NCBI GenBank assembly: GCA_944377745.1
Contig: CALWFV010000024.1
Location: 1 to 48,927 of the forward strand
Direction: 5' to 3'
Source: an uncultured Mediterraneibacter sp.
GTDB taxonomy: Bacteria > Bacillota > Clostridia > Lachnospirales > Lachnospiraceae
DNA: 48,927 nt
The translations under genes and the position numbers were made by a program. Below, in pieces: positions 13,327-33,257 of this stretch. The notes beneath the pieces were generated by a model, which had not been told where the DNA came from, searched no databases, and was given only the letters and a program-made list of their open reading frames with translations. Every line of letters begins with the position of its first letter. Position 1 is the stretch's first letter.

Positions 13327-14010
13327 CTATCGACCTCCTCTAAGCCCGACTGACTGCAGGGCAAATATATCATGGCAGAGCATATCCACTTCCTTTTCCG
13401 TTAAATCAAGGAAACGGCATCCATATCTAAAACATGAGGTTTCGCCTCCGAGAGACACTTCCTGTCTGCGGACGATCTCCGCAGGAAGAACATGATCAGC
13501 GCTATTCTCTAGGAGTCTCAGCCCTGAAAAAGTCAGATTTTCACCGACCGCATATTCCTTTTGGCTCAGAAAACCGATTCCTGTGATGCTGATATCCACG
13601 ATCTTGCAGTCGGTCTCCTCTGTTCCGCTGGCGGTACGTACCGCGCAGGACGATCTTACGGACAGTCTGAAATTTCCCCTGCTCTCACTATACCGCCCGC
13701 CATCTTTCAGCCGGATATACCAGAAAGTATCCGCACGTTGATAGGCTGTTCCGTAAAGAAGTATCACATCTCCTCTTGCCTGAGCATGAAGGAGGGCAAT
13801 CTTGACATCCGTTTCCGAATCTTCGCTGCGAAGCCTTCCATTTTTCCGGCGCAGATCGATCCGCAGTTCTTTTGTTTTTTCGTCACATGCGCCGATCGTC
13901 CCCACAAAGAGAAATTCATTCTCGACTGTTGTCACTTCACACAAAGCCCCTTTATTCTGCAGGGCGAGTTCGTATGCGGCTGTAGCCTTTTCCGCCTGAT
14001 CACTACTCAT
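13327..14010 (-). CDS. PilZ domain protein
   Basis: A 227-residue c-di-GMP receptor. The N-terminal half is a YcgR-like beta domain; the C-terminal PilZ domain shows RGNFRLSVR (the RxxxR motif, about residue 115) and DISITGIGF (the DxSxxG motif), which bind c-di-GMP. It therefore probably reads the second messenger made and degraded by its neighbours and acts on an unknown target, often motility or surface export in this family. The start at 14010 follows AAGGAGGAAT, which lies over the end of the upstream gene, four bases from that gene's stop. A longer reading frame upstream of 14010 only overlaps the EAL gene. Confidence 0.88.
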   Translation of the reverse strand: MSSDQAEKATAAYELALQNKGALCEVTTVENEFLFVGTIGACDEKTKELRIDLRRKNGRLRSEDSETDVKIALLHAQARGDVILLYGTAYQRADTFWYIRLKDGGRYSESRGNFRLSVRSSCAVRTASGTEETDCKIVDISITGIGFLSQKEYAVGENLTFSGLRLLENSADHVLPAEIVRRQEVSLGGETSCFRYGCRFLDLTEKEVDMLCHDIFALQSVGLRGGR

Positions 14011-14014
14011 ACTG

Positions 14015-17000
14015 CTATTCCTCCTTCTTTGATTTCTCATAAAGCATACCGGCATCTTTCTCTCTGTGCAAGATCTGATACAGATCCTCCAGTTCCTGGG
14101 GCTGATAGAAATAAAATCCTTGTATAAAATCGGCATCTGTCCTTCGGACAGCCTCAAGTTCTTCCTGCTTTTCGACGCCTTCCACACAGACCTTCTTACC
14201 GAATTTGTGGCAGGCATAGATGATACTCATGATAAAGTTCATCTTTTCTTTGGACAAGGTGATCTCTCTCATCATTGTGCGGTCCAGTTTTACCAGATCC
14301 GAGGGATACTGCAGGAGCAGTTGGAGGCTGGAATATGCAGTGCCGAAATCATCCAGAGCAAATTTGAGCCCCATTTCCCTGCACGCTTTTACAAACGCTT
14401 CGAACTGTTCCGGCATCTCATTAAAATAAGTCTCTGTCAGTTCGAGCAGGATATTCTCACCCGGCACACCGCTGTATTCCAGTGTCTTCCTGATAAAATC
14501 CAAAAATTTACCATCGATGATCTGCTGATAACTCACATTGACAGATATTTGAAAGTCCGGAAAGATCGTTCGTATCTTCTTGCAGGCGTGAACAGCCTGG
14601 GTGAATACCCATTTTCCCACAGGATTGATCAGGCCATTTTTTTCAAGAGCTGGGATGAACTGCGCGGGCGATATGTCAGTACCCTTGAACTTCCAGCGCA
14701 GGAGAGTCTCTCCTCCATATATTTTTCCGTCTGCTGCAGTCACCTGAGGCTGAATCACTATTCTGAAATCTTCAAAACTATTATTTATACAACGGTTCAG
14801 AGCAGCATCAAGTTCAGACTGGTATTTGTAATTTTCGGCCATTTCAGGTGAAAACTCCACAAATCGTTTTCCCTTTGCCTCCTTCGCTGCATTCAGCAGG
14901 ACGGAGGCATTCTCCACCAGCTCCTGCACTGTTTTTCCATCTCGCGGACTTCTCAGCACTCCCATGGAGCAGGGGTAAATAATCGGAATCTGATACTGGT
15001 TATATATGTCTTTTACAATGCTCCAGACCTCGTTTACAATGCTTTCCGGATCTTCCATCTGCTTTGAAAAAATGATAAAATGAACCCCTTCCAGGCGCAT
15101 AATTCTGAAAGTATGTCCCAGCTTCTGATGTATCCGGATGATGATATCCCACAGAATCGAATCACCTTTCTCTCTGCCAAGAAGCTGATTGATGATGGAG
15201 AAATTGTTAAGAGAAAAACAGAGGAAAATCTGCTCCTGCCCCCCTTTGCTGTGCTTTCTGATCTCGTCCAGGGCAAAGGAGAGGTTTTTCATACTCAAAT
15301 CTATTGCCGGCAGTTCCTCATTATTGGAAAAGGTAAGCGTTCCGGCAAGAAAGTAAGGTTTTGTCTTTTTCTTATTCCATTTTATAATACTCTGGTACTG
15401 GATCCATACCGGTTTTCCGTCCGCGTTATATATACGGAAATGGGAGCTGTTCCAGTCCCGTTTTTCCGCCAGAATATGGGCCTTTTCTTCCGTGTAGCGC
15501 TTGATATCGCATTTGACGATTCGTTGTTCTAATATAGAAATAAAATCATAAACAAGATTGTCGGAGAAATTAAATTCCTTTTTCAGGCTGTCAGAGATAT
15601 AGTATACCTTTCGCCTGACATCGCCGAAGAAATAAAAGGACTGTGACACATCTGGAGCGACAGCGCGGAAGAAAGTATCTGCGTCAAAAAAGTACTCTTT
15701 GATAAAACGGAAGAATGCATTTCCCTCTCTGAGTTTTTCTTCTTCCTTCAGTCTGTTTTTTTTCAGACTGAGCAGCCGGCCCTTCAATGAATTGCTGCTG
15801 GCATAGAACTTCTCTTTTTCCTCAATCATCTTCTGATCGGCTATCTTTATAAGACTGTAAAGATCTTTTTCCTCATCTGTAACCCATACACTGCCGATGG
15901 ACAGGCTGTAATTGTTTTCCATCATTTTACGCTGAAGGAGATCAAGTTTGATCTCAAATGCGCTTTCCTCATCACAATGGGCTAAGACCAGGAATTCATC
16001 ACCACCGACACGGAAGACCTCTTCTGCTGAGAACACGCTTACCAGCGTATCATACACAGCAATGATTACCTTGTCTCCCCCTTTATGTCCCTGGAGATCA
16101 TTGATGACTTTCAAGCCATTAATATCACAGAGAACGATGCCTATTGGGCATGCAAGCTTCTTTTCTTCTATATATTTACGTGTTGCATGTCTGTTCAGGG
16201 CATTGCTGAGCTGATCATGATAGCTGAGGTATTCAAAATGCCTTTGCAGATCTCTGCGTTCCAGCAGAGTAACTACAAAATGTGACAGTATCCTTCCCAT
16301 TAGTATAACATTCATCGGTGAATCAACTTCCGGATCGTCAAGTCTCAGAAATCCGTGAAGTTCCATTCGGGATAAGAGCGGCACAAGGATTATAGAATGG
16401 CTGTTGGGGGATTCAAGCTTTTCTGCCAGCCCTGGATTCTCTTCCCTGAAACCGTCAATATCAGTAATCAATACAGAGCCGCCGTAGCAGGCGTCTCTAT
16501 ACCAGTTCCACAGATCCGACAGATTTGAATCGCTGTTCTCCGCATTTCCCGATTTTTTTTCGGCATCTTCTTTCCCTGATATCCAGCTGTAATTGTGAGC
16601 CAACTGTTTCGCTGTTCTCCCCTCATAGATGTCTGCGCGGGAGCATTTCAGCTTTTCCCCTGCCGTCTGCAGCATGGTATTCAGCGATTCATCCGGGTCA
16701 GAAACTGCATTTGCCTGAACGAGACAGGCATCTATCAGCGCCTCACAGTGCAGCAGACTATTTATAGAAAGAGCATCCCTTTTTATATCCACGGCAATCT
16801 TCATACGGCATTTCATACCTTCCCACAGTATCAGGGTATCTTTCAAGAGGAACGGATGACGTGGAACCGAGCCGCCCCATTCAGTAATTTCCTCTTCCTC
16901 AGGAACGAAAGTATTACAGAATGGACATGGCTCAGAGCGGCCCTGCAGCACCATATAGCATTTTTGTTCAGAATAGTCCTCTCTTTTATCAATCGAGAAT

Positions 17001-17104
17001 TTATCCATAGCGTACCGGTTCATATAAATTAAATTATTTGTTTCTGTCTCGGTCACATAGACAATCTCGTTTAAGTCTTCCAGATATTCCCACGGTGCTT
17101 TCAT
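14015..17104 (-). CDS. Large PAS/GAF/GGDEF/EAL c-di-GMP phosphodiesterase-type protein
   Basis: A soluble protein of 1029 residues from ATG 17104 (GGAGG 11 bases upstream; an ATG at 17119 or 17197 is possible but poorly supported). Domains in rough order: PAS (1-90, including CPFC), GAF-like (110-280), GGDEF (295-455) with intact RVGGDEF, PAS (about 500-600), a second GGDEF that is degenerate (RLEGVHF), and EAL (775-1015). In the EAL domain the motif reads ETLLR instead of EALLR, with NVS, LELTE, DDFGTAYSS, VKLDR and EGVE retained, so hydrolysis of c-di-GMP is plausible. First gene of an operon with PilZ and GGDEF proteins. Whether the first GGDEF is a synthase or a GTP sensor is open. Confidence 0.85.
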   Translation of the reverse strand: MKAPWEYLEDLNEIVYVTETETNNLIYMNRYAMDKFSIDKREDYSEQKCYMVLQGRSEPCPFCNTFVPEEEEITEWGGSVPRHPFLLKDTLILWEGMKCRMKIAVDIKRDALSINSLLHCEALIDACLVQANAVSDPDESLNTMLQTAGEKLKCSRADIYEGRTAKQLAHNYSWISGKEDAEKKSGNAENSDSNLSDLWNWYRDACYGGSVLITDIDGFREENPGLAEKLESPNSHSIILVPLLSRMELHGFLRLDDPEVDSPMNVILMGRILSHFVVTLLERRDLQRHFEYLSYHDQLSNALNRHATRKYIEEKKLACPIGIVLCDINGLKVINDLQGHKGGDKVIIAVYDTLVSVFSAEEVFRVGGDEFLVLAHCDEESAFEIKLDLLQRKMMENNYSLSIGSVWVTDEEKDLYSLIKIADQKMIEEKEKFYASSNSLKGRLLSLKKNRLKEEEKLREGNAFFRFIKEYFFDADTFFRAVAPDVSQSFYFFGDVRRKVYYISDSLKKEFNFSDNLVYDFISILEQRIVKCDIKRYTEEKAHILAEKRDWNSSHFRIYNADGKPVWIQYQSIIKWNKKKTKPYFLAGTLTFSNNEELPAIDLSMKNLSFALDEIRKHSKGGQEQIFLCFSLNNFSIINQLLGREKGDSILWDIIIRIHQKLGHTFRIMRLEGVHFIIFSKQMEDPESIVNEVWSIVKDIYNQYQIPIIYPCSMGVLRSPRDGKTVQELVENASVLLNAAKEAKGKRFVEFSPEMAENYKYQSELDAALNRCINNSFEDFRIVIQPQVTAADGKIYGGETLLRWKFKGTDISPAQFIPALEKNGLINPVGKWVFTQAVHACKKIRTIFPDFQISVNVSYQQIIDGKFLDFIRKTLEYSGVPGENILLELTETYFNEMPEQFEAFVKACREMGLKFALDDFGTAYSSLQLLLQYPSDLVKLDRTMMREITLSKEKMNFIMSIIYACHKFGKKVCVEGVEKQEELEAVRRTDADFIQGFYFYQPQELEDLYQILHREKDAGMLYEKSKKEE

Positions 17105-17303
17105 GTAAACAGAGTCCTCCATACTTTGCGTTGTCTTTTGTCTGTTCAATAGATATAGATTAAGGAAACACAGTCCTTTTTGTGTAAAGCCAAACAAAAA
17201 TGCCTACAAACAAAAAGAAAAGGAATCCATTAACATTAATTTTACATCAATTACTTATCATTTAAAAGAAAAAATTTAGACTTTTGCAGAAATTTTCATA
17301 AAA

Positions 17304-25817: not shown

Positions 25818-26426
25818 TTAACTCATCAGAAAATTCAGCGATCCGGGAGGATTTTCCGTGCCCTTCTCGAGAAGACAGATCAGCGCCCTTATCGTGCGCT
25901 CGCTCTGCTCACGGGTGGAGGGAGCGAGGGTATCGTCCATCTTCACTGTGAGTACGATCAGCACGATCTCGGCCAGAGCTTCCGCGTCGTCAAAGTGGAT
26001 CTCGCCGGCTTCGATGCCCTGGCGGATGATCTCGGCGAGAACAGGTTTGAGTTCTGTGATGATGTGGTTGATATATTTCTGGTGAAGGTAGGCCTTCTCC
26101 TGCGCTCCTGTGCCTTCGCTTTCTCCTGACCTGATAAATTCGGAGGAAGAGTTCCGGCAAGCCTGGAAGATCATTGCCATCCGCGTAAACGGAGAAATAT
26201 CCGTCTGAGAGGAGAGAGCCTTTGCAGTCTTGAGCGGTTTTTCGTAACTGCGCTCCACAAGCGCTTCAAGGATCGCGTCTTTGGACGGAAAATAGTAATA
26301 GATGCTCCCCTTCCCGATCCCTGCGGTATGCGCGATCTCGCTGACGGAGATGGACTGGAGCTTCCGGTTTTCCAGGAGTTCCTGCAGGGCGTCCAGGATG
26401 CGGTCATATTTTAATTGATTTGCCAT
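25818..26426 (-). CDS. TetR family transcriptional regulator
   Basis: A 202-residue TetR repressor. The N-terminal helix-turn-helix reads LQSISVSEIAHTAGIGKGSI followed by YYYFPSKDAILEALVE (residues about 24-60); the rest is an all-helical ligand domain with no clear relation to a known ligand group. It is divergent from the SCP2-hydrolase-condensation-ACP-ligase operon, which carries three tandem GACCG/CGGTC repeats, so it is the likely repressor. A perfect AGAGAG/CTCTCT inverted repeat (26479-26494) and an extended -10 (TGCTATACT, minus strand near 26526-26521) lie in its own upstream region. AAAGGA precedes the ATG. Confidence 0.88.
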   Translation of the reverse strand: MANQLKYDRILDALQELLENRKLQSISVSEIAHTAGIGKGSIYYYFPSKDAILEALVERSYEKPLKTAKALSSQTDISPFTRMAMIFQACRNSSSEFIRSGESEGTGAQEKAYLHQKYINHIITELKPVLAEIIRQGIEAGEIHFDDAEALAEIVLIVLTVKMDDTLAPSTREQSERTIRALICLLEKGTENPPGSLNFLMS

Positions 26427-26610
26427 TGTACATCGTCCTTTTCAAAATGCTGCCGGCGGCTGTGCCGGATACTGTATCAGAGAGAACGCTCTCTTCTGAA
26501 AATAATACAAATACAATCAGAGTATAGCACAGGAATGCCTGAAGAGCCAGCGAGAAAACTTCACAAAAAATAAAAAGATTTCCCCCGTTATTTTGAGAGG
26601 AACGCCTGTT

Positions 26611-26691
26611 GACCGGCAGTCGAAAAGGTGATAATCTAACAGAAGAAAAGGAATGACCGCCGGTCGAAAATGGGACCGGATCGGTCGAAAA
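26611..26691 (+). promoter_or_regulatory. Promoter with three tandem TetR-operator-like repeats
   Basis: Three copies of a GACCG-(1 to 3 bases)-NGGTC or GACCGGCAGTC core, each followed by GAAAA, at 26613-26628, 26655-26670 and 26674-26691. The second and third are inverted repeats (GACCGCCGGTC; GACCGGATCGGTC). The first overlaps a TTGACC -35 (26611-26616) with a TAATCT -10 17 bp further down. The last ends five bases before the AGGAGG of the SCP2 gene. Confidence 0.65.
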
Positions 26692-26701
26692 GGAGGAAAT
26701 T

Positions 26702-27040
26702 ATGACCTACGCAGACATGTTTTCAAAAGTAAAGGGGATGCTGATGGACGCGGATGTGAGCGATATCCACGAACACCTTGCCTATCAGTTCAATATCACG
26801 GGCGAGGCGGAAGGCATCTTCTATGCGGAAGTAAAGGAAGGAAAGCTCTATGTGGAGCCGTACGAGTACTTTGACCGCGACGCCATGTTTACCTGTTCGG
26901 CGGAGACACTCTTCAAGATCGCGGACGGTAAGACGGATCCGATCCTTGCGGTGACGCTGGGAAAACTGAAAGTGGAGGGCAATATCGATAAAGCGCTGAA
27001 GCTGAAAGACCTGATCAACAGCAAGAAGAAAAAGAAATAA
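26702..27040 (+). CDS. SCP2 sterol-binding-like protein
   Basis: A 112-residue single SCP2 domain. Seen: MTYADMFSKVKGMLMDADV, AYQFNITGEAEGIFYAEVKE, a lipid-pocket strand pattern, then ETLFKIADGKTDPILAVTLGKLKVEGNIDKAL, which is the conserved C-terminal signature of the family (given as a region, residues 68-100), and a polylysine tail. SCP2 domains bind lipids or fatty-acyl-CoA and present them to enzymes. It opens the five-gene operon, which fits an acyl or lipid hand-over role. AGGAGG is six bases before the ATG. Confidence 0.8.
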   Translation: MTYADMFSKVKGMLMDADVSDIHEHLAYQFNITGEAEGIFYAEVKEGKLYVEPYEYFDRDAMFTCSAETLFKIADGKTDPILAVTLGKLKVEGNIDKALKLKDLINSKKKKK

Positions 27041-27068
27041 GAAATTTCAGAAAAGCAGGTGAAGAAAA

Positions 27069-28013
27069 ATGGGTAAATTATTAAAAGGAGCTGCAGTCCT
27101 TCTTGGAGCTGTGGCAGCGGCAGAGGCCGGTGGGACAGCGTATTTCTACAGAAGGACCATGAAGCGCTACAACGCGAAAGTGGAGAGGACTATGAAAATG
27201 TCCGGCGTGGACTGGGAACAGTATGTCCCTCTGATGTCACAGAGAAGGGACTGGATGATGGAACAGCCCCACGAGGATGTGTGGATCACTTCCCACGACG
27301 GGCTGAAGCTCCACGGTACATATTTCGAGGGGGACGGCGGGAACAAAGCCGTTATCTGTTTCCACGGGTATACCAGCCAGGGAACCAATGATTACGGAAG
27401 TCTTTCCTATTATTATCTGAACCACGGATTCCGGATGCTTCTGATCGATGAGCGCGCGCACGGCGAGAGTGAGGGAACCTATATCGGGTTCGGGACAATG
27501 GACCGGCTGGACGGAATGGAGTGGGTGAAATGGATGATCGAAAAGATCGGCGATGACGCCCAGATCCTCCTACATGGAAACTCCATGGGGGGCGCTACGG
27601 TCTGCATGATGAGCGGATTGAAGCTGCCGCCGCAGGTGAAAGGGATCGTCTCGGATTGTGCGTTTACCTCGGCGAAAGACGTGTTTACCCATGTGCTCCA
27701 CAGTATGTATCACCTTCCGGCATTCCCGATGATCCAGATCGCGGATAAGCTGAACAAGAGAAATGCAGGCTATGGTCTGAATGAGTGCAACGCGGCGGTC
27801 GAAGTGAGAAAGGCGGAGGTGCCGTTCCTCTTTATCCACGGCGGGAAGGACATCTTTGTTCCATGCTGGATGTGTGAAGAAATCTATAAGAACTGTGCTT
27901 CGCCGAAGACGAAACTGATCGTTGAAGAGGCGGGACACGGCGAGAGCTATTACAAAGACACAGAAGCCTATGAGGGGGCTCTGGATACATTTATCGGAGG
28001 GATAATGAAATGA
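27069..28013 (+). CDS. Membrane-anchored alpha/beta hydrolase
   Basis: A 314-residue alpha/beta hydrolase. An N-terminal hydrophobic segment (LLKGAAVLLGAVAAAEAGGT, residues 4-23) is likely a membrane anchor or uncleaved signal. Catalytic residues are visible: nucleophile in HGNSMGGATV (Ser near 177), Asp in HGGKDIFVP and His in EAGHGES. The oxyanion region is CFHGYTSQG and DERAHGES follows. In this operon it could act as thioesterase, esterase or acyltransferase. AAGCAGGTGAAG precedes the ATG. Its stop overlaps the next start (ATGATGA), so translation is coupled. Confidence 0.85.
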   Translation: MGKLLKGAAVLLGAVAAAEAGGTAYFYRRTMKRYNAKVERTMKMSGVDWEQYVPLMSQRRDWMMEQPHEDVWITSHDGLKLHGTYFEGDGGNKAVICFHGYTSQGTNDYGSLSYYYLNHGFRMLLIDERAHGESEGTYIGFGTMDRLDGMEWVKWMIEKIGDDAQILLHGNSMGGATVCMMSGLKLPPQVKGIVSDCAFTSAKDVFTHVLHSMYHLPAFPMIQIADKLNKRNAGYGLNECNAAVEVRKAEVPFLFIHGGKDIFVPCWMCEEIYKNCASPKTKLIVEEAGHGESYYKDTEAYEGALDTFIGGIMK

Positions 28014-29416
28014 TGAGAACAAGGAAGGGGCACAAAGTGTACCCGCTGACAGTGGCACAGAAATTCCATCTTTACTATGCACCCCACTGCCCGAACATGG
28101 CGGTGCTCAATATCGGGACAAGCCTGACCATCGAGGTGGAGCTTGACTGGGATCAGCTTAAGAAATCCATCAACGAGGCGTATGCGAGAAGCGAGGGCAT
28201 GCGCGTCCGTCTGGCAAAAGACAAAGAGGGAACCTGGTATCAGTATGTGATGGATCCGGAGGAGAAGGACATCGAATTTGTTGATTTCTCAGACAGGACA
28301 GTCGAAGAGGCTGAGGCGGAGATGCAGAAATGGACGACGGTGCCGTTCAAGATGTTCGATTCCCCGCTGACCAGGATCGTCATGATCAAGATGCCGGACG
28401 GGTTTAACGGAGTCTATTTCCTGGGGAACCATATGATCGTGGACGCCCAGTCGCTGATCTGCTTCCTTAAGGATATCATCGAGCTGTACTGCAATGCCAA
28501 GTATGAAGGAGTCCCGTATCCGAAAGACATGGCGTCCTATATCGAACAGCTTGAACGCGATTTCGCTTATGAAGCCGGAAGCAGGGCGCAGCAGAGAGAC
28601 GCCGAGTATTTCCAGAAGGAGATCGAGAAGGGCGAGCCGATCTACAATGACCTTCACGGGACGGCGAAACTGGAGTCCATGCGGGAAATGTTCAAGAATC
28701 CGGAACTCCGCTCCGCGTTCTGTGTGACGGACGATACAAAATCCGCGCTGGATATCTTCCATCTGGAAGAGGAGCCTACGAAACGGCTGATAGATTTCTG
28801 CGAGAAATATCATGTTTCCCTTGCGTGCCTTCTGCTTATGGGACTGCGTACCTATTATCAGAAGATGAACGGATTTGAGGACGTGTCCCTGACGACGACG
28901 ATCGCGCGCCGCGCGACCCTGAAAGAAAAGAAGTCCGGCGGCACAAGGATCCATTCCTTCCCGTTCCGCACGATCTTCCCGGAGGATATGAAGTTTATCG
29001 ATGGCGTGTACGCGATCCGCGACAAGCAGAACGAATACTTCCGCCACGCAAACTATGACCCGACCGCGTATTTTGCATACCGGGCAAAGACGTATCCGCA
29101 GCCCCAGCCCGGACTGGGGTATGAGCCCATCTCTCTGACTTACCAGCCTCTCACATTGAAGGAGAAAGGTCTGGATCAGTTGGGTGACATCCGTTATAAG
29201 ACGAAATGGTATCCGAATGGCATCTGCCCCCAGGGAATGTATCTGACGGTAATGCACCGCCCGGAGGACAACGGTCTGGACTTCAACTTTGAGCATCAGA
29301 TCAAGGCGGTGTCCAGGGAGGAACTTGAGTACCTGTATTATTACCTCTGCAAGATCATGTTCAAGGGTGCGGAGAACCCGGACCTGACCATCGGAGAGAT
29401 CATTAAATTAGTATAA
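28010..29416 (+). CDS. Condensation-domain-like acyltransferase (stand-alone)
   Basis: A 468-residue protein of the NRPS condensation / CoA-dependent acyltransferase superfamily. The catalytic HHxxxDG motif appears as NHMIVDAQS (residues about 143-151), keeping the active-site His and Asp. The N-terminal YPLTVAQKFHLYYA matches the C1 motif region, and the C-terminal region contains NFEHQIKAVSREEL. Such enzymes join an acyl group on a carrier protein to an amine or hydroxyl. There is no fused adenylation or carrier domain; those are separate genes downstream. Two tandem ATG codons occur at 28010 and 28013. The acceptor is unknown. Confidence 0.8.
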   Translation: MMRTRKGHKVYPLTVAQKFHLYYAPHCPNMAVLNIGTSLTIEVELDWDQLKKSINEAYARSEGMRVRLAKDKEGTWYQYVMDPEEKDIEFVDFSDRTVEEAEAEMQKWTTVPFKMFDSPLTRIVMIKMPDGFNGVYFLGNHMIVDAQSLICFLKDIIELYCNAKYEGVPYPKDMASYIEQLERDFAYEAGSRAQQRDAEYFQKEIEKGEPIYNDLHGTAKLESMREMFKNPELRSAFCVTDDTKSALDIFHLEEEPTKRLIDFCEKYHVSLACLLLMGLRTYYQKMNGFEDVSLTTTIARRATLKEKKSGGTRIHSFPFRTIFPEDMKFIDGVYAIRDKQNEYFRHANYDPTAYFAYRAKTYPQPQPGLGYEPISLTYQPLTLKEKGLDQLGDIRYKTKWYPNGICPQGMYLTVMHRPEDNGLDFNFEHQIKAVSREELEYLYYYLCKIMFKGAENPDLTIGEIIKLV

Positions 29417-29427
29417 GGAGAACGACC

Positions 29428-29661
29428 ATGTTTGAGAAATTAGTAAATATCATCTGCAACTATGTTGAGGTAGAGCCGGAGAATATCCATCCGGAGTCCC
29501 GTTTCATGGAGGATCTCGGTTTTACATCCTTCGACTTCATGAGCATGCTCGGAGAGATCGAGGATGAGTTTGATGTGGAGGTAGAGCAGACGGAGGCGGC
29601 AAATATCCGCACTGTGCAGGAAGCGGTTGACTATCTTGAGAAACTGACTGCTGAATCATAG
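29428..29661 (+). CDS. Dedicated acyl carrier protein
   Basis: A 77-residue acidic carrier protein. The phosphopantetheine site is in FMEDLGFTSFDFMSML (Ser in TSF, near residue 34), with the usual helix pattern before and after (VEVEPENIHPESR, EIEDEFDVEVEQTEAANI). The DSL motif of primary-metabolism ACPs is replaced by TSF, which points to a specialised carrier. AAGGAGAAC lies before the ATG. It sits 11 bases after the condensation gene and 88 bases before the ligase; a hairpin with a short T run fills the second gap. No phosphopantetheinyl transferase gene is in the window. Confidence 0.88.
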   Translation: MFEKLVNIICNYVEVEPENIHPESRFMEDLGFTSFDFMSMLGEIEDEFDVEVEQTEAANIRTVQEAVDYLEKLTAES

Positions 29662-29683
29662 AAACAAAATTGGAACAGAAGAC

Positions 29684-29712
29684 AGAGACAGGCTGCAGCG
29701 GTCTGTCTCTTT
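29684..29712 (+). terminator. Possible internal attenuator between ACP and ligase genes
   Basis: An 8 bp perfect stem (AGAGACAG at 29684-29691 with CTGTCTCT at 29703-29710), an 11-base GC-rich loop and only a short T tail (TTT). It could reduce, but is unlikely to stop, read-through into the ligase. Confidence 0.4.
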
Positions 29713-29748
29713 ATGTCCGCGCGGAAGCGGAGAAAGGATAGGGGAAAT

Positions 29749-31257
29749 ATGCTTTGCAGTACCGTACGTGAGATCCTGGCCGGAACAGAGAAGAAATACG
29801 GTCCGGAGGATGCGATCCGCTATAAAATAAGCAAAAGCGAGATCGGATCAAAAAGTTACACGCAGTTGAAAGAGGACAGCGAGAGTTTTTCAAATGTTCT
29901 GAAATGCATGGGCGAGCAGGGGAGCCATATCGCGGTGATCGGGATGACCTCCTACGAGTGGCTCGTAACTTATTTTGGAACAGTCAACAGCGGAAGCGTT
30001 ATCGTGCCGTTGGATGTGAACCTCCCGGCGGAGGATGTGTGCGATCTGATCGACCGCTCGGATTCCACTGTCTTTGTCTATGATGAAGTGAGAAAGGATG
30101 TGGCGGCGATCGCAAAGGAACGCTGCCCGAAGCTGAAGACTATGGTCTCCATGCAGCAGGCAGAGCATGATGACCATGCATATTCTTTCTGGAAGCTGAT
30201 CGAGGAACACAGAGGAAGCTTTGATTACGAGCCGGATCCGGATCAGCTCTGCACGATCATGTTCACATCGGGAACTACGGGAAAGAGCAAGGGAGTCATG
30301 CTGACCCACCGGAACGTGGCGGAGAACGCGACCTGCCTTGACATGAAGATCCCGGAGCGCATCGTGATCATGACGGTCCTTCCGATCCATCACGCATACT
30401 GCCTGAGCATGGATATCCTCAAAGGCGTGTCGCTGGGAGCGGTCATCTGCATCAATGATTCCCTGATGCGCGTGGCGAAGAACATCAAACTCTTCAAGCC
30501 GGAGATGATCCTGATGGTGCCGCTGATGATCGAGACTATGGCGAAGAAGCTGGAGGAGGCTTCCCTTCTCCCGGCGAAGATCGTGAAGAACCAGGTGTTC
30601 GGAAAACAGTTCCATACGATCTGCAGCGGCGGAGCTTACCTGGATCCTTCCTATATCGACCTGTTCAAAAAATATGATATCACGATCCAGCAGGGATACG
30701 GCATGACCGAGTGCGCGCCGGTCATCAGCGTTACCCAGGCATGGAACATCCGGAAAGACGCGGTGGGACAGCTTCTCCCCAACTGCGAGGCGAAGACCGT
30801 GGACGGCGAACTGTGGGTAAAAGGAAGCAGCGTGATGCAGGGATACTATAACATGCCGGAAGAGACGGCGGAGACCCTGGAGGACGGCTGGCTCAAGACC
30901 GGAGATCTGGGCTACGTTGATGAGGACGGCTTTGTCTACCTGACCGGACGCAAGAAGAACCTGATCATAACGAAGAACGGCGAGAATGTTTCCCCGGAAG
31001 AGCTGGAGAACGCGCTGAGTACGAACCGCCTTGTGGGAGAGGTGCTTGTCCGCGAGAAAGGCGGCGTGATCGAGGCAGAGATCTATCCGGATCAGGATTA
31101 CGTGAAGAAGAAACGGATCAAGGACGTCAGGGAGAAACTGCAGGAAGTTATCGACGAGTACAACCGCACTGCGGCGCCCCAGAAGAAGATCTACAGCCTG
31201 ATCGTGCGGGATACGGAGTTTGAGAAGACGACGACGAGGAAGATTAAGAGGTTCTGA
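29749..31257 (+). CDS. Acyl-AMP ligase (acyl-CoA/ACP synthetase family)
   Basis: A 502-residue ANL-superfamily adenylating enzyme. Motifs: MFTSGTTGKSKGVMLTHRN (A3, near 165), QGYGMTECAPVI (A5), KTGDLGYVDEDGFVYLTGRK (A7-A8) and the C-terminal catalytic lysine in TTTRKIKRF. The overall sequence is closer to long-chain acyl ligases than to amino-acid-activating domains, so a fatty or aryl acid is the expected substrate, loaded on the adjacent carrier. The start is set at ATG 29749 behind GGATAGGGG; the upstream ATG at 29713 falls on the edge of a hairpin and has no ribosome binding site. Last gene of the operon. Confidence 0.85.
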   Translation: MLCSTVREILAGTEKKYGPEDAIRYKISKSEIGSKSYTQLKEDSESFSNVLKCMGEQGSHIAVIGMTSYEWLVTYFGTVNSGSVIVPLDVNLPAEDVCDLIDRSDSTVFVYDEVRKDVAAIAKERCPKLKTMVSMQQAEHDDHAYSFWKLIEEHRGSFDYEPDPDQLCTIMFTSGTTGKSKGVMLTHRNVAENATCLDMKIPERIVIMTVLPIHHAYCLSMDILKGVSLGAVICINDSLMRVAKNIKLFKPEMILMVPLMIETMAKKLEEASLLPAKIVKNQVFGKQFHTICSGGAYLDPSYIDLFKKYDITIQQGYGMTECAPVISVTQAWNIRKDAVGQLLPNCEAKTVDGELWVKGSSVMQGYYNMPEETAETLEDGWLKTGDLGYVDEDGFVYLTGRKKNLIITKNGENVSPEELENALSTNRLVGEVLVREKGGVIEAEIYPDQDYVKKKRIKDVREKLQEVIDEYNRTAAPQKKIYSLIVRDTEFEKTTTRKIKRF

Positions 31258-31538: not shown

Positions 31539-33257
31539 CTACACAGCTATTTCCTCACTCATGGCGATATGGCATCTTTTCCTGTAACACGCTATGCCAT
31601 ATTTCAGGATCTTTTCCATACCGTCTTCATGCAGCTTCTTAGCATAGTTTTTTGACTCGATCTGCTGAAGGGCTTTTTCACATGCCGCTGTCAGGTTCCC
31701 GTCCTCGGCATATTTTATTTCGATCACCATTCCGGTATCCCCGTCGTCTGTTTCTACAAGGATATCGCAGTAACCGTCGCCGGACTCTCTGTTCGACGTG
31801 ATATACCAGGAGTCTTTGTAGCTGAGCAGCCCGAGTAGGATGCCGTGATAATAATTCTCTTTCATATTTTTTCTTACGGCTGTGTCGCGGATGCTGATAG
31901 TACGCCTCAGATATTCGGTAAATTTTTTCTCGGCTGTCTCGGCATCGCCATTTTTAAAAGCGATGCAGAACGTTTCCAGGGAAGTTCCGTCTTTTCTGGC
32001 GGTATCCTGGAACCACTCAAAGATCTGCTCGGTAAAAATGTTCCGGATCTCTTTGTTGGGGATGACCAGGATATGTTCCCGTTCGCTGGTAACGCCGCGC
32101 TGGGTCAGATAGCCGGTGGTGAACAGAAGGCTCCAGATATTATCTATGGAGGCGTACATGTCTTTGTATGTCAGGTTCTGGCGGAGAACTTTTTTTACAG
32201 ATTCTCCTGAGACCAGCCCTTCGATCTCACGTTTTGTTACGGCGTTAGCCTGCTCCAGAAAATGGCGGAGGGCTTCGTTCCCGCTTGTGTTTGACCAGTA
32301 GGCTTCCGGCTGCGCTTCGGGATCAGAGCGGAGCGCGTCGCAGTAACAGAGTACATCCCAGGGACAGTATACATCTACATTCCCAAAACGATAACCGTCG
32401 TACCATTCCTTTATCGTGTCATAGTGGTCTGAAAGACCATAGTATTCCAGAAGAGCGCGGACCTCGCTGTCAGTGAAGCCGAAATATTCATCGAAACGTA
32501 CATCTGTGACGGAGAGGACTTTCATATTGTTCAGGCCTGTGAAGATACTCTCCTTTGCCACACGCAGACAGCCGGTGAGGACTGCAAACTTCAGATTATC
32601 GTTTGTTTTTAGTGCCTGCTCGAACATATTACGGATCAGCATGATCATCTGATCGTAGTAGCCATTTTCATTTGCCTTTGCCAGCGGCACATCGTACTCA
32701 TCGATCAGCATGATTACATCACTGCCATAATGCTTTTTGAGAAGGGCGGAAAGCATATACAGACTTCCCATCAGGGCAGCATCCGATATTTTGAAGACGG
32801 AATTGTCATCGACTGCGATAAGCTGAGAGTAAAGAGCTTTCTCTACCTCAGTCAGCCGTTCACTTTTTGCGAGAAACTGAAAGCGGAGGGCTTCTTTTCC
32901 GATGACAGAGCACATCATGTTACGTGCGGTTTCAAAGTCATTTCCATTGACACTTTTCAGGCTGATGGCGATCACCGGGAATTTTCCCATATAGTCTCGG
33001 CACAGCTCTTCTTCTTTCATGATCTCCAGACCCTGGAACAGGCTTTCGTCGCAGCCGATTTCAAAAAATGCTTTGAGCATGCTCATGTTCAGCGATTTCC
33101 CGAATCGCCTCGGGCGGGTGAACAGATTTACTTCTCCCCAGTTATGGAGAAGATCCCGGATCAAGCCGGTCTTGTCAATATAGTAAAAATTTTCAGCACG
33201 GATTTTTTCGAAGTTTTCGATGCCGATTGAAATTTTTTTTCGAATTTTTTCAGCCAT
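31539..33257 (-). CDS. AAA-ATPase-like / PD-(D/E)XK nuclease-like protein
   Basis: A 572-residue protein of the two-domain family common in gut Firmicutes and Bacteroidetes. The N-terminal AAA-ATPase-like domain begins with IGIENFEKIRAENFYYIDKT and has the P-loop FTRPRRFGKSLNMSML (near 45-60) and VIMLIDEYDVPLAK (Walker B). The C-terminal PD-(D/E)XK-like domain shows YCDILVETDDG followed by GMVIEIKYAED, the D...ExK pattern. Function is unproved; defence or mobile-element roles have been suggested. It stands alone between a giant inverted repeat and the divergent coaX gene. Confidence 0.82.
   Translation of the reverse strand: MAEKIRKKISIGIENFEKIRAENFYYIDKTGLIRDLLHNWGEVNLFTRPRRFGKSLNMSMLKAFFEIGCDESLFQGLEIMKEEELCRDYMGKFPVIAISLKSVNGNDFETARNMMCSVIGKEALRFQFLAKSERLTEVEKALYSQLIAVDDNSVFKISDAALMGSLYMLSALLKKHYGSDVIMLIDEYDVPLAKANENGYYDQMIMLIRNMFEQALKTNDNLKFAVLTGCLRVAKESIFTGLNNMKVLSVTDVRFDEYFGFTDSEVRALLEYYGLSDHYDTIKEWYDGYRFGNVDVYCPWDVLCYCDALRSDPEAQPEAYWSNTSGNEALRHFLEQANAVTKREIEGLVSGESVKKVLRQNLTYKDMYASIDNIWSLLFTTGYLTQRGVTSEREHILVIPNKEIRNIFTEQIFEWFQDTARKDGTSLETFCIAFKNGDAETAEKKFTEYLRRTISIRDTAVRKNMKENYYHGILLGLLSYKDSWYITSNRESGDGYCDILVETDDGDTGMVIEIKYAEDGNLTAACEKALQQIESKNYAKKLHEDGMEKILKYGIACYRKRCHIAMSEEIAV

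Follow-up and report, generated by a model that had tools for sequence, protein, structure and literature searches.

A candidate FAA biosynthesis operon with a lipid carrier, a hydrolase and predicted TetR operators in Mediterraneibacter and related gut genera

Does a run of five genes at 26702–31257 of the window (the whole 48,927-nt stretch analyzed here, contig C24 of a 3.67-Mb, 99.98% complete genome of an uncultured Mediterraneibacter sp.) encode an undescribed pathway that conjugates acyl groups, as a first-pass annotation had proposed, or a form of a pathway already known? We compared each gene product with its relatives and with solved structures, examined the same locus in other Lachnospiraceae, and weighed other readings of the operon.

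The operon and its condensation-ACP-ligase core

The five co-directional ORFs and a divergent TetR-family regulator gene (25818–26426, − strand; Pfam TetR_N, E = 1.4e-12) are all intact. ORF positions and Pfam matches confirmed the families assigned earlier, all on the + strand: an SCP2-like lipid carrier of 112 aa (26702–27040; Pfam SCP2, E = 5e-13, and an AF2 model), an alpha/beta hydrolase (27069–28013; Pfam, E = 4e-14), a free-standing, OaaC-like condensation protein (C protein; 28010–29416; Pfam Condensation, E = 1.6e-31 over residues 9–463; PDB 12KH), an acyl carrier protein (ACP; 29428–29661; Pfam PP-binding, E = 7e-13) with its phosphopantetheine site at S34, and an acyl-adenylating ligase (29713–31257; Pfam AMP-binding, E = 6e-62). 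Packing is tight, and the hydrolase and C genes overlap by 4 bp. The five genes stand as annotated, but the limits of the unit do not: it also takes in the TetR gene and the predicted operators upstream of SCP2, which lie outside 26702–31257.

Two observations concern the surroundings. An AAA-ATPase-like protein with a PD-(D/E)XK nuclease domain (31539–33257, −) is encoded between the operon and a type III pantothenate kinase gene, and at some related loci this gene was not found where the kinase gene was present. Upstream, a large GGDEF-EAL protein (14015–17197, −) adjoins a PilZ-domain protein (13327–14217, −), a cyclic-di-GMP pair.

Among solved C domains, OaaC is the closest to the stand-alone C protein of the window: PDB entry 12KH was matched over the full length (E = 3.5e-108; next solved structure in the PDB search, E = 9.5e-8), and the alignment gave 39.3% identity over 461 columns. 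This entry is OaaC, the fatty acid amide (FAA) synthase of Coprococcus eutactus, which together with its ACP and ligase joined oleoyl, palmitoleoyl and lauroyl groups to aminovalerate or GABA in vitro to form amides, as reported in PMC13142362; that report credits Chang et al. 2021 with the original description of the FAA core. A trait of the free-standing FAA pathway of the OaaC kind is an autoinhibiting homodimer that is opened by holo-ACP. OaaC has an insertion containing a helix (Gln214-His224), and by sequence the window C protein aligns over this stretch gapless.

The HxxxD part of the active-site motif (N140-H141-MIV-D145-A146) is intact, as the first reading of the sequence held, with H141 and D145 invariant in 104/104 distinct relatives. 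In the 127 FAA C domains covered by the preprint (PMC13142362), the motif, written (D/H)HxxxD, likewise keeps its second His and its Asp, and the next residue is Ser in 42% and Ala, the second commonest, in 36%. In the group of the window this residue is Ala in all 104 distinct C proteins, and members of the group may therefore be among those 127 sequences. The first motif position varies within the group (D 42, H 28, N 22, Q 11 and S 1), so that 70 of the 104 carry the D or H of the preprint form, whereas the window has N. A tree of 47 chosen rows, including OaaC, eight OaaC-like rows and one distant outgroup, with named C-domain classes left out, placed the group of the window and the OaaC-like group on the two sides of one branch (support 88/90; long-branch warnings for L017, L087 and L088). 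Judged from these sequences, the C proteins of the cassette form a group apart from that of OaaC.

The partners of the C protein are conserved as well. Residues were counted on distinct sequences (102 hydrolases, 94 ACPs, 104 C proteins and 98 ligases); an earlier count had kept ORFs longer than 80% of the corresponding window protein (112, 111, 111 and 105 rows, some genomes appearing twice). The ACP serine, S34, is invariant (94/94), and the genome has one ACPS-type PPTase available to activate the carrier. The residue before the serine is T in 84, S in 5, N in 4 and D in 1; the TSF in place of DSL pointed out in the first-pass annotation is present, but we rejected it as an ACP defect because T is the usual residue of the group. 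Ligase K510 is kept in 96/98. The ligase and ACP of the window are 41–45% and 42–49% identical, respectively, to those beside OaaC-like proteins (L081–L086). The sequence of events inferred earlier, in which the ligase activates an acid, the ACP carries it and the C protein conjugates it, with no aminoacyl-A domain and a simple acyl conjugate as product, agrees with the published FAA pathway. The claim that the pathway is undescribed had to be given up: by homology the C-ACP-ligase core is of the known FAA kind, that of OaaC/OaaACP/OaaA (PMC13142362).

In the hydrolase, the triad S172-D261-H290 is invariant (102/102), and the closest structure to its model (pLDDT 87.4) is the esterase Pf2001, with a monoacylglycerol lipase lower in the list. 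Its predicted N-terminal helix (residues 2–31) is likely a membrane anchor, in keeping with the membrane-anchored hydrolase proposed earlier. A hydrolase of the same family adjoins C in two of the eight OaaC-like loci (L081 and L084).

Spread of the cassette, separability of SCP2, and predicted paired operators

Matches to the C protein (E ≤ 1e-40) occurred in 55 of the 397 genomes of the family sample, 39 matches at 51–100% identity and 17 at 29–37% (OaaC-like), with none between. The two kinds coexist in one genome, G189, which carries a window-type C protein (C2:614471–615865, 56%) and an OaaC-like one (C1:2417098–2418468, 34%). Of the 25 genomes sampled from the genus, 16 (own genome included) have a copy at ≥78% identity. 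We examined 32 of the 39 loci in the 51–100% group, where the hydrolase and ligase were beside C in 32/32, the ACP in 31, SCP2 in 30 and TetR in 26 (one fragment counted); L079 in this group has lost its upstream part at a contig end, and L080 has a shortened C. At the eight of 17 loci examined in the 29–37% group, SCP2 was near C in none, ACP and ligase were present in seven, and three gave weak TetR-profile matches. The shortened C gene of L080 runs into the ligase without an ACP, a decayed operon; in L088, a distant relative, the order is C-ligase-ACP, followed by ABC-transporter-like genes.

The same gene order elsewhere, put forward earlier as a check, was found. A scan of named genomes used the best 80 of 406 relatives, so that its counts apply to the nearer relatives only; the closest of these loci were mostly from Mediterraneibacter, and 13 of the 80 were interrupted by contig ends. 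The full arrangement TetR(−) | SCP2-hydrolase-C-ACP-ligase was present in 66 of the 67 loci with intact flanks, counting L145 (ligase in two ORFs), and the exception, L132, has only a 38-bit TetR fragment. The six-gene order is more than chance, and it recurs in Mediterraneibacter, Blautia, Fusicatenibacter, Claveliimonas, Merdimonas and other genera. The literature searched, which did not extend to Chang et al. 2021 or Elmassry et al. 2025, yielded no description of the complete six-gene cassette, and one may be in print.

SCP2 is less firmly tied to the other genes. Its fold extends over the chain (AF2 model, pLDDT 87.6, matching SCP2 carriers, one of them solved with a C16 fatty acid), and it is present in 90 of the 397 family genomes (E ≤ 1e-5). 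At 36 sampled SCP2 loci away from C genes, 14 of them shorter than 11 kb and at contig ends, neither C nor the hydrolase was found, and SCP2 as an obligate part of the operon was therefore rejected. Five of the 36 keep TetR with SCP2 (L174, L175, L176, L179 and L182), and L179 has TetR, SCP2 and ligase fragments, the pattern that loss of the middle genes would leave. Operon and solo copies are intermingled in the SCP2 tree (eight changes), in which only 7 of 53 inner branches are well supported. Since SCP2 occurs without C or the hydrolase, the tight core is hydrolase-C-ACP-ligase, and the TetR-SCP2 module can stand alone.

The gap between TetR and SCP2 contains two 17-bp dyads close to TTGACCGNCGGTCGAA. 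The first (GTTGACCGGCAGTCGAA, 26608–26624) overlaps the −35 box of a candidate promoter at 26609–26637 (+), recognized by its conserved shape (TTGACC at 26609–26614, a 17-bp spacer ending in TGA, and TAATCT at 26632–26637), and the second (AATGACCGCCGGTCGAA, 26652–26668) lies 44 bp downstream of the first. A plain promoter scan did not list the candidate promoter; among the 100 TetR-SCP2 regions compared, 88 with the dyad pattern share the consensus TTGACC, 17 bp and TAaTcT, with TG before it. With up to four mismatches allowed, the 100 regions held 200 dyad sites, against a mean of 9 and a maximum of 17 in 20 rounds of dinucleotide shuffling. These regions are related loci rather than independent ones; 94 are distinct, and five come from loci with TetR and SCP2 and without C. 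At least two sites occur in 89 of the 94, and a pair 43–45 bp apart in 87. All five solo-SCP2 loci with TetR carry dyad sites, three of them as a 43–45-bp pair, and the four loci of the genus Blautia (L220–L223) all have the pair at 44 bp. Control of the operon by TetR, suggested at first pass, is supported by these conserved predicted operators.

In its own genome, the dyad pattern gave six sites at no more than one mismatch, two of them in the operon, against 36 for a reversed control pattern, so that there is no evidence for a wider TetR regulon there and we rejected one for this genome. One of seven genomes searched (G020) has a second exact palindrome outside the operon (C3:77929–77944), which may be another target of TetR.

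Competing readings and the link to Blautia hominis RS03310

The condensation-protein superfamily includes ester-forming members, and the C protein could instead move its acyl group to a hydroxyl of a lipid, sugar or sterol, yielding an ester rather than an amide. Apart from those ester-forming members, such O-acylation can draw on a weak AATase match below the cut-off (E = 0.0025). We judge it unlikely, as the nearest studied relative forms amides with free amines (PMC13142362). The activated acid might also be a bile or sterol acid rather than a fatty acid, so that bile-acid amides would result; SCP2 carriers can hold sterol-like ligands, the setting is the gut, and a cholesterol response has been reported for a probable orthologue of the carrier (PMC13029680). 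The ligase, however, is of the kind found beside OaaC-like enzymes, at the identities given above, and the studied member of that kind loads fatty acids, which makes this reading highly improbable.

That orthologue raises the remaining alternative. According to PMC13029680, cholesterol raises the SCP2-like protein RS03310 of Blautia hominis HA2291 and is bound by it, the only lipid for which binding was published; NADH forms in its presence, and mutants lose this. The protein (recombinant form ~20.6 kDa) was published as a cholesterol oxidoreductase, with RS03300, a condensation-domain protein, as its predicted partner, and it is the only cholesterol-raised gene named in the portion of that report drawn on here. 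Applied to the window, SCP2 would be a cholesterol-binding oxidoreductase and the C protein its partner in sterol modification. We compared the 12 residues of RS03310 named in PMC13029680 with the SCP2s of our loci. In the first SCP2 set the best protein shared 7/12 and the window SCP2 only 5/12, whereas L220, L221 and L222, from the genus to which Blautia sp. An81 belongs (G068, whose contig is that of L134), shared 9/12, 10/12 and 12/12, respectively. L222 is a complete TetR | SCP2-hydrolase-C-ACP-ligase operon, and its SCP2 (174 aa, 19.7 kDa) is 60% identical to that of the window. The condensation-domain gene of B. hominis is two tags away from RS03310, which fits SCP2-hydrolase-C spacing. 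With all 12 residues matched and this spacing, RS03310 probably opens an acyl-amide operon of the cassette type, and a lipid carrier in acyl-amide synthesis is then a reasonable alternative to a cholesterol oxidase. This does not disprove the assays of PMC13029680, and the reported induction, binding, NADH formation and mutants, together with the 12/12 match of an operon SCP2, count in favor of sterol modification. Against it, the SCP2 model matches lipid-carrier folds, with no dinucleotide-binding enzyme among its 45 PDB matches at E ≤ 0.001; the reported Kd for cholesterol, 0.56 mg/mL (PMC13029680), is reckoned here as >1 mM; and the C protein, the ACP and the ligase are of the FAA-synthesis type. 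We consider sterol modification very unlikely for the cassette. The SCP2s of L220–L222 have long, lysine-rich tails, and that of the window ends in KKKKK; such tails perhaps make contact with the membrane.

Proposed function and comparison with known systems

By analogy with the OaaC system, the operon probably serves FAA biosynthesis by separate C, ACP and ligase proteins, as a distinct form that is regulated and responds to lipids. TetR would repress it through the two operators 44 bp apart, one of them over the −35 box, and a lipid signal may release the repressor. At the membrane, the anchored serine hydrolase could supply or edit fatty acyl groups, while SCP2 may carry the free acid or the finished amide; because some loci encode SCP2 and TetR and lack the core, however, these two may not serve FAA synthesis. 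As in the OaaC work, the ligase would adenylate a fatty acid and load it onto the phosphopantetheine arm at Ser34 of the ACP. At the active site of the C protein, which contains His141, a small amine arriving by diffusion would then attack the thioester, and an N-acyl amide, a hormone-like lipid, would be released; we infer this step from the in vitro work with OaaC and its partners and from residue conservation. A search of the genome for amine suppliers found no PF00282 decarboxylases and two OKR_DC genes (PF01276), which do not settle the amine acceptor; lauroyl tryptamine has been ascribed to gene clusters in diverse Clostridia and shown for Eubacterium rectale (PMC10900623).

Products of the FAA clusters found in gut Clostridia act on human GPCRs. 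The cassette represents a large set of these clusters, from common gut genera, in which the two lipid-handling genes are a constant feature. The conserved paired operator makes its regulation directly testable, and the published cholesterol-oxidizing SCP2 of B. hominis gains a different reading, as gene 1, probably, of an acyl-amide operon. A more speculative and rather doubtful extension is that in Mediterraneibacter, Blautia and their kin the cassette is a signaling switch responsive to host lipids, in which a gut sterol or fatty acid lifts TetR and fatty acids are turned into amide signals able to act on host receptors; if so, the published cholesterol induction of the Blautia SCP2 would be a first sight of the switch.

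Of known systems, starter condensation domains of lipopeptide NRPSs, which the tree of PMC13142362 places closest to the FAA C domains, share the fold and the acyl donor with the window C protein. They act, however, on carrier-bound amino acids in multidomain enzymes, and the window operon has none. The likeness is closer to the gut-Clostridia FAA clusters represented by OaaA/OaaACP/OaaC of C. eutactus, which have the same free-standing C, ACP and ligase and the same His/Asp core and, like the window operon, have neither an acceptor carrier nor an aminoacyl-A domain. SCP2, hydrolase and TetR go unmentioned in the main text of PMC13142362. The two kinds differ in the residue after the motif Asp, HxxxDA throughout the group of the window against HxxxDS in OaaC and seven of the eight OaaC-like loci (L086 has A), and in gene content, since the window cassette has a dedicated SCP2 and hydrolase and its own TetR with paired operators. 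What is distinct here is the cassette, a widespread and probable FAA cluster that also encodes SCP2, a hydrolase likely anchored in the membrane and a switch of the TetR family.
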